A DNA stretch of 64,000 bases, from contig JAHBAS020000006.1 of NCBI GenBank assembly GCA_018499965.2, forward strand, positions 31,559-95,558, in the 5' to 3' direction. Both the position numbers and the translations under genes were made by a program. The notes under the pieces are model-generated. The model saw only the letters and a list, made by a program, of their open reading frames with translations, searched no databases and was not told the DNA's origin. Of the stretch, positions 55,517-56,983 are shown in pieces. The stretch comes from Candidatus Uhrbacteria bacterium (GTDB lineage Bacteria > Patescibacteriota > Patescibacteriia > 2-12-FULL-60-25). How positions within the stretch are numbered: position 1 is the stretch's first letter; each line of letters starts with the position of its first letter.

Positions 55517-55729
55517 TCATGGGCATGATAGCGCATTTGGGATGATCGTTCTTGTTTCGGAGGGCATCTTGACGGGGCGTGCCGTGATATGTTGAAATAC
55601 AGGCTCTCTCGAACCTTCGATTTCTCCGAACGCAAAACCCATCACAATCGATACAACCACAATGAGGATGGGGGCACGCATTCGGGAATAAAAAACGATA
55701 AGGCTTCGCACTAGCCGGTCGTTCCCCAC
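55517..55729 (-). CDS. Small single-TM protein coupled to the DUF362 gene
   Basis: MRAPILIVVVSIVMGFAFGEIEGSREP...; its stop and the DUF362 start form TGATATG. Confidence 0.4.
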   Translation of the reverse strand: MGNDRLVRSLIVFYSRMRAPILIVVVSIVMGFAFGEIEGSREPVFQHITARPVKMPSETRTIIPNALSCP

Positions 55730-55739
55730 GAACTACGGG

Positions 55740-55981
55740 GCAAAGAATGAGCACGTTCGCGTTCATCAGCTGTACTCAATGACCATCCCTCGAGTGAATC
55801 GCACCAGGTCTATGGAGTCTGTCTCGATGCCGTTCGTTCTCTTCGTTCGCGGCGCTTATCAGCTCCCCTAGCTGATTTTCCTCGCGAACAGCGAAAGCAG
55901 TCCTTTCCCACAGGAAACTGCCTAGCACGTGCCTAATCTCCCATCCTCCGTTGGCTCACGCCTCGGAGGATGTTTCTTTTT
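55740..55981 (+). ncRNA. Putative structured RNA 1 (5' end approximate) ending in a terminator
   Basis: Stem 55845-55889 (7 bp, 6x6 internal loop, 7 bp), hairpin 55897-55921, terminator CATCCTCCG...CGGAGGATG-TTTCTTTTT; no credible ORF. Confidence 0.45.
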
Positions 55982-55991
55982 GAAAGCTGAC

Positions 55992-56021
55992 TTGACATTT
56001 TTTGGCCTGTATGGCTAGATA
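55992..56021 (+). promoter_or_regulatory. Sigma70-type promoter of putative RNA 2
   Basis: TTGACA-18-TAGATA, same TTGACATTTT style as 48692 and 58096. Confidence 0.55.
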
Positions 56022-56027
56022 GAGAGA

Positions 56028-56436
56028 GTTCGTTAGATTTCCCCTCAAATGCAGCTCCGCGGACGGTGTTCATGGCGTATCGCGTTGAGTGGCATAAGAG
56101 GAAACGGTGGGCTTGCACGAAGCCTGACCGATAGAATGGTGAACGATATGAGGGATTCGGCCCCAGCAAAGATGGAGATTGAGTGAAGTCGACGTGTGAA
56201 CTGTCGCGTCAGACCTCTTCGTCTTCGTGCGTAGAAAATGCTGCGTGATCGCGTGTCCTCTTGCGTGTCGTTCATGGTTCCTGTGGATGTTCAATGGGTT
56301 GCCCTCCTCCCCCCCCACCTCGCCTATTGTTCATTCATGGAAGGTATCTACGGGTAGGTGAATTAGCGTTCATCCTATTCGTAGATATCACGTGCCTCTT
56401 CGGAGGGACCTTTATCCAAGGTCCCTCTTCTTTTTT
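56028..56436 (+). ncRNA. Putative structured RNA 2, approximately 410 nt
   Basis: Promoter upstream; 20-bp hairpin with three G-U pairs at 56343-56389; terminator at 56403; no credible ORF. Confidence 0.45.
56403..56436 (+). terminator. Strong Rho-independent terminator
   Basis: GAGGGACCTT-TATCC-AAGGTCCCTC-TTCTTTTTTT. Confidence 0.8.
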
Positions 56437-56473
56437 TCTCGTTTGTCATTTTGTGCTATGCTAGCTTATAGAT

Positions 56474-56983
56474 ATGGCACGTTACGCTCCGGATTTCGAA
56501 GATCAGCTCATCGACGCGCAAGACGCGTTCGTTTGGGAAACGCCGGAACATGAACGTCATGATCGGGGATCGAAATGGTATGTTGTTATGGGCGCCGTTG
56601 CCTTGCTTTTCGTGGCTTATGCCATTTGGACCACGAATTACCTATTTGCCCTTATCGTTCTCTTGCTCGCAATTACGATTATTCTGATCGGGAACGAGAA
56701 GCCTCGTAAAATCCTCGTGCAAGTTGGGCATCATGGATTGGTTTTGGATGGGCATTTCATTTCCTACGAAGATCTTGAGCATTTTGCGATCATCTATCAG
56801 CCCCCGATGATCAAGACGCTCTACCTGTATCCAAAGAACAGTGTGCTTCCGCGATATCGAATTTATCTTGGTGATCAAGATCCTGTGAGTGTTCGCGATC
56901 ATCTCCGCCGATACGTTGCGGAAAACTTGGAAATGCGAGATGAACACGCCTCCGATATCATCGGACGATTGTTAAGGTTGTAG
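56474..56983 (+). CDS. Two-TM conserved-looking membrane protein
   Basis: WYVVMGAVALLFVAYAIWTTNYLFALIVLLLAITIILIG followed by soluble domain. Confidence 0.7.
   Translation: MARYAPDFEDQLIDAQDAFVWETPEHERHDRGSKWYVVMGAVALLFVAYAIWTTNYLFALIVLLLAITIILIGNEKPRKILVQVGHHGLVLDGHFISYEDLEHFAIIYQPPMIKTLYLYPKNSVLPRYRIYLGDQDPVSVRDHLRRYVAENLEMRDEHASDIIGRLLRL

Follow-up and report, generated by a model that had tools for sequence, protein, structure and literature searches.

A candidate lineage-specific small RNA ending at an intrinsic terminator in an intergenic gap of a Candidatus Uhrbacteria genome

Based on its sequence, we propose that the stretch at positions 55740-55981 of the window (the whole 64-kb length of Candidatus Uhrbacteria DNA that was analysed) may encode a lineage-specific orphan small RNA (sRNA) of roughly 230-250 nt, read from the + strand and ending at a terminator at 55942-55981, a reading to which we give a little less than an even chance. 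Overall, this is an unproven and weakly supported candidate, with which neutral intergenic DNA that happens to form hairpins competes seriously as an explanation. The strong + directed terminator, the minus-strand genes to the left, the large gap, the folding z-score and a repeat triple unmatched in shuffled sequences speak for a putative sRNA, whereas the lack of a recognised promoter, a folding signal that comes largely from the terminator and the absence of conservation count against it. It is a fair inference that a short noncoding transcript of the + strand is made here, because the terminator points in the + direction, no + strand gene lies upstream and no credible reading frame is present. 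The sequence, the repeats, the terminator signal and the lack of Rfam matches and detectable homologs are shown here; the transcription, 5′ end, in vivo fold and function of the candidate are inferred. The predicted features of the stretch are as follows.

55747-55871, + strand: two tiny overlapping frames of 11 and 30 codons (55747-55782 and 55779-55871, with an ATGA overlap), unsupported as genes
55751-55756, + strand: GCACGT, 5′ strand of a possible closing stem (P1) that pairs with 55927-55932 in the centroid fold
55755-55771, + strand: upstream repeat copy GTTCGCG-TTC-ATCAGCT (55755-55761, TTC, 55765-55771), an alternative 5′ arm, from the sequence
55845-55889, + strand: local hairpin of 7 bp, a 6x6 internal loop, 7 bp and a 5-nt loop, from the sequence and a pair probability of ~0.9
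55897-55921, + strand: second hairpin, GCAGT...ACTGC, from the computed fold
55927-55932, + strand: ACGTGC, 3′ strand of the possible closing stem P1, from the centroid fold
55942-55981, + strand: intrinsic terminator with a 9-bp stem and a T-rich tail, from sequence signal and energy

The initial annotation had described a repeat with one shared complement, and every letter and coordinate of it proved exact: the motif GTTCGCG-N3/N6-ATCAGCT is found twice, at 55755-55771 and at 55845-55864, and 55870-55889 is complementary to both copies, forming with the nearer one two stems of 7 bp each (55845-55851/55883-55889 and 55858-55864/55870-55876). When the 64 kb were scanned exhaustively on both strands (7+7 bp, gaps of 0-8, partners within 160 nt), this was the sole triple in which one 3′ strand has two separate upstream partners. 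Equivalent triples were found in none of 40 dinucleotide shuffles and none of 60 order-5 Markov windows, figures that are not a strict probability since the triple was picked post hoc. Its rarity is also slightly softened, not removed, because the window contains more GTTCGCG than expected (23 copies versus ~5).

The minimum free energy of the whole stretch was -79.9 kcal/mol, with a z-score of -3.8 relative to shuffles, compared with -2.2 for the stretch without its terminator and -3.9 for the two-hairpin segment 55843-55940; much of the folding signal of the stretch is contributed by the terminator. By structure, it ranked sixth of the ~530 240-base strand-windows in the 64 kb, with windows containing a tRNA or a strong terminator ranking nearby. 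Forcing the local or the upstream pairing gave nearly isoenergetic folds (-79.1 versus -79.6 kcal/mol), the gap being smaller than the error of the model, whereas in the ensemble the local hairpin accounted for ~90% (probability ~0.9) and pairing with the upstream copy for ~7% (0.07). Folding of growing 5′ pieces showed the local hairpin to be optimal once its own 3′ arm was included; the long-range form was optimal only after the closing strand near 55930 had been added.

These two pairings had been taken as the layout of a switchable RNA, and a switch is not supported by the analysis. The terminator forms in both folds and is overlapped by neither pairing, the ensemble is dominated by the local hairpin, the transcript unit contains neither a gene nor a ribosome site with which an alternative helix could compete, and the searches found no homologs that might show covariation. 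Since the terminator remains intact in both folds, no frame exceeds 30 codons and the next gene (at 56474) has a promoter motif of its own behind a second terminator, the layout differs from that of attenuators and riboswitches. Of the structured RNA originally claimed, then, a terminated + strand RNA stays plausible, given its terminator, hairpins, lack of a credible frame and lack of an Rfam match, and its switchable character does not. The main fold of such a transcript would consist of the local hairpin and the small hairpin behind it, probably with the closing stem as a part, and the upstream repeat copy would offer an alternative long-range helix, thermodynamically close and in the minority. 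If active, the RNA would most likely be trans-acting or a stable structural RNA and not a cis switch.

The hairpin and the Rho-independent terminator said to follow the repeats were both recovered, the hairpin in the computed fold and the terminator as a sequence signal. The terminator, with its stem at 55942-55950/55964-55972 plus TTTCTTTTT and an energy of ~-21 kcal/mol, is among the strongest on the + strand of the window and provides the intrinsic end expected of an sRNA gene. It was also confirmed that no reading frame is credible here: the longest + strand frame inside the stretch has 30 codons and matches no Pfam family, and a six-frame Pfam search of the stretch revealed no traces of a pseudogene. 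The stretch sits in a gap of roughly 740 bp, the largest in the window's list of open reading frames. Its left neighbours, a DUF362 gene and a small frame, are both on the minus strand; the small frame (55517-55729), a possible membrane peptide without a Pfam match, overlaps the start of the DUF362 gene. To the right, the gene starting at 56474 encodes a membrane protein present in 34 of 41 family genomes, and has its own family extended -10 motif at 56457, located behind another terminator (56402-56436). This conserved protein of 169 aa belongs to no Pfam family, and just 5′ of its start the extended -10 TGnTATAAT is strongly conserved in nearly all relatives (window 56457-56480; L014-L042), a proximity which suggests that its leader is very short or absent.

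The most serious rival is that the region is neutral intergenic DNA, which we regard as a real possibility but less probable than a small RNA. The terminator would then block stray + strand transcription (antisense or read-through) and insulate a promoter-like site at 55992, and a decayed local duplication nearby would have left a chance hairpin and a second copy. In agreement with this, the two repeat copies can be aligned across 20 nt if one indel of 3 nt is allowed, like a small duplication, TTGACA stands immediately 3′ of the terminator, and consensus scans upstream of the stretch, which a weak promoter may escape, found neither a site like the extended -10 of the clade nor a sigma-70 consensus. 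Homologs were likewise not found: BLASTN and a single-sequence covariance model gave none in 41 same-family and 384 same-class genomes, no similar intergenic region occurs at syntenic loci anchored on the right neighbour or on DUF362, and a related-locus search and searches of viral contigs, phages and plasmids yielded nothing. No conservation was detected at the genus, family or class level. On the other hand, a 20-nt arm with both a complement and a copy is rarer than chance, and no upstream + strand gene needs the terminator.

Several matches from these searches were rejected. Those of BLASTN within the genus are located in unrelated, apparently coding DNA, and the sole BLASTN match below 0.001 (L060) covers 31 nt around the tail of the terminator and the TTGACA behind it, again in an unrelated, apparently coding region. 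The covariance model gave only matches of ~16-20 bits to a generic hairpin plus terminator, as seen in the best three. Scanning 85,462 species genomes for the pattern gave 18 matches, 15 of them within long open frames and none accompanied by the remaining element.

It is unlikely that the structure belongs instead to the minus strand, as the 5′ leader of the divergent operon of the small membrane protein and DUF362 (55729 to 54445). The start of that operon adjoins the stretch on the left and the minus strand can form the same helices, but its z-score in the same test is weaker (-2.0 versus -3.8), no convincing minus-strand promoter lies upstream, the terminator tail is exclusive to the + strand, and the upstream regions of DUF362 homologs are dissimilar.

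It was also noticed that the gap holds a second structured stretch without a reading frame (55992-56436, + strand; fold z -5.7), having a long hairpin near 56340-56390 and ending with the terminator at 56402-56436. At its start, TTGACA (55992-55997) is followed by a poor -10, TAGATA (56016-56021). This stretch had no credible Rfam match, and BLASTN found no homologs in the family and class genomes. Two colinear short similarities connect the sRNA candidate with the 3′ end of this second stretch (55756-55767/56363-56374 and 55923-55934/56386-56397, 11 of 12 bases each), the latter pair directly before the terminator in both; their score was reached by ~1/300 shuffles with long gaps and was not significant with standard gaps. 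It seems improbable, more so than the minus-strand leader, that the gap at 55735-56436 would carry two adjacent noncoding RNAs of a class outside Rfam, alike at their ends (GCGTTCATC close to the 5′ end, CACGTGCCT ahead of the terminator) but not in their middles, one of which, the first, could alternate between two isoenergetic folds. In a same-genus genome (L044), 183-307 and 1330-1452 each hold a long inverted repeat (CACTTTCCCGAGGAGTC...GACTCCTCGGGAAAGTG); the two are similar and look like a small repeated hairpin element.

Very doubtful is a leader-peptide attenuator, in which ribosomes on the 30-codon frame, whose stop codon falls inside the loop of the local hairpin, would open that hairpin and allow the upstream pairing; the two overlapping frames do span both 5′ arms, but their ribosome sites are weak, frames this tiny are expected by chance and are not conserved, the terminator stands clear of both pairings, and the transcript carries no gene. 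Covariance models agree with the earlier failure to match RNase P, tmRNA, SRP or 6S RNA by eye: none of the four matches the stretch, and a search of Rfam at gathering thresholds and at E <= 10 found no credible match. RNase P and tmRNA genes were found on other contigs of the genome. Least probable of all is that the stretch is an RNA of a known class, for instance 6S or SRP RNA, that has diverged very far; the lack of any RF00013 or RF00169 match genome-wide would fit this, but neither model matches the stretch even at E <= 10, the SRP model misses some control genomes, and the absence of 6S RNA elsewhere is uninformative because RF00013 misses most of them.

If transcribed, the candidate would add one more lineage-specific sRNA to the repertoire of a small genome (1.1 Mb); at present it is one among many unproven intergenic RNA candidates, and compensatory changes in a close relative would raise its importance. 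Compared with known systems, it resembles attenuators and riboswitches in having one strand with either of two partners, but its pairings compete with neither a terminator nor a ribosome site and its transcript unit is without a gene. Alternative pairings are known within the 6S RNA family, and with 6S RNA (RF00013) the candidate shares a length of ~200 nt and a closing stem, although the covariance model was unmatched at every threshold used. It differs from orphan intrinsic-terminated bacterial sRNAs in that its promoter is unrecognised and that it is known here from sequence alone, and is like them in its intergenic position, hairpins, terminator, absence of a reading frame and narrow distribution.
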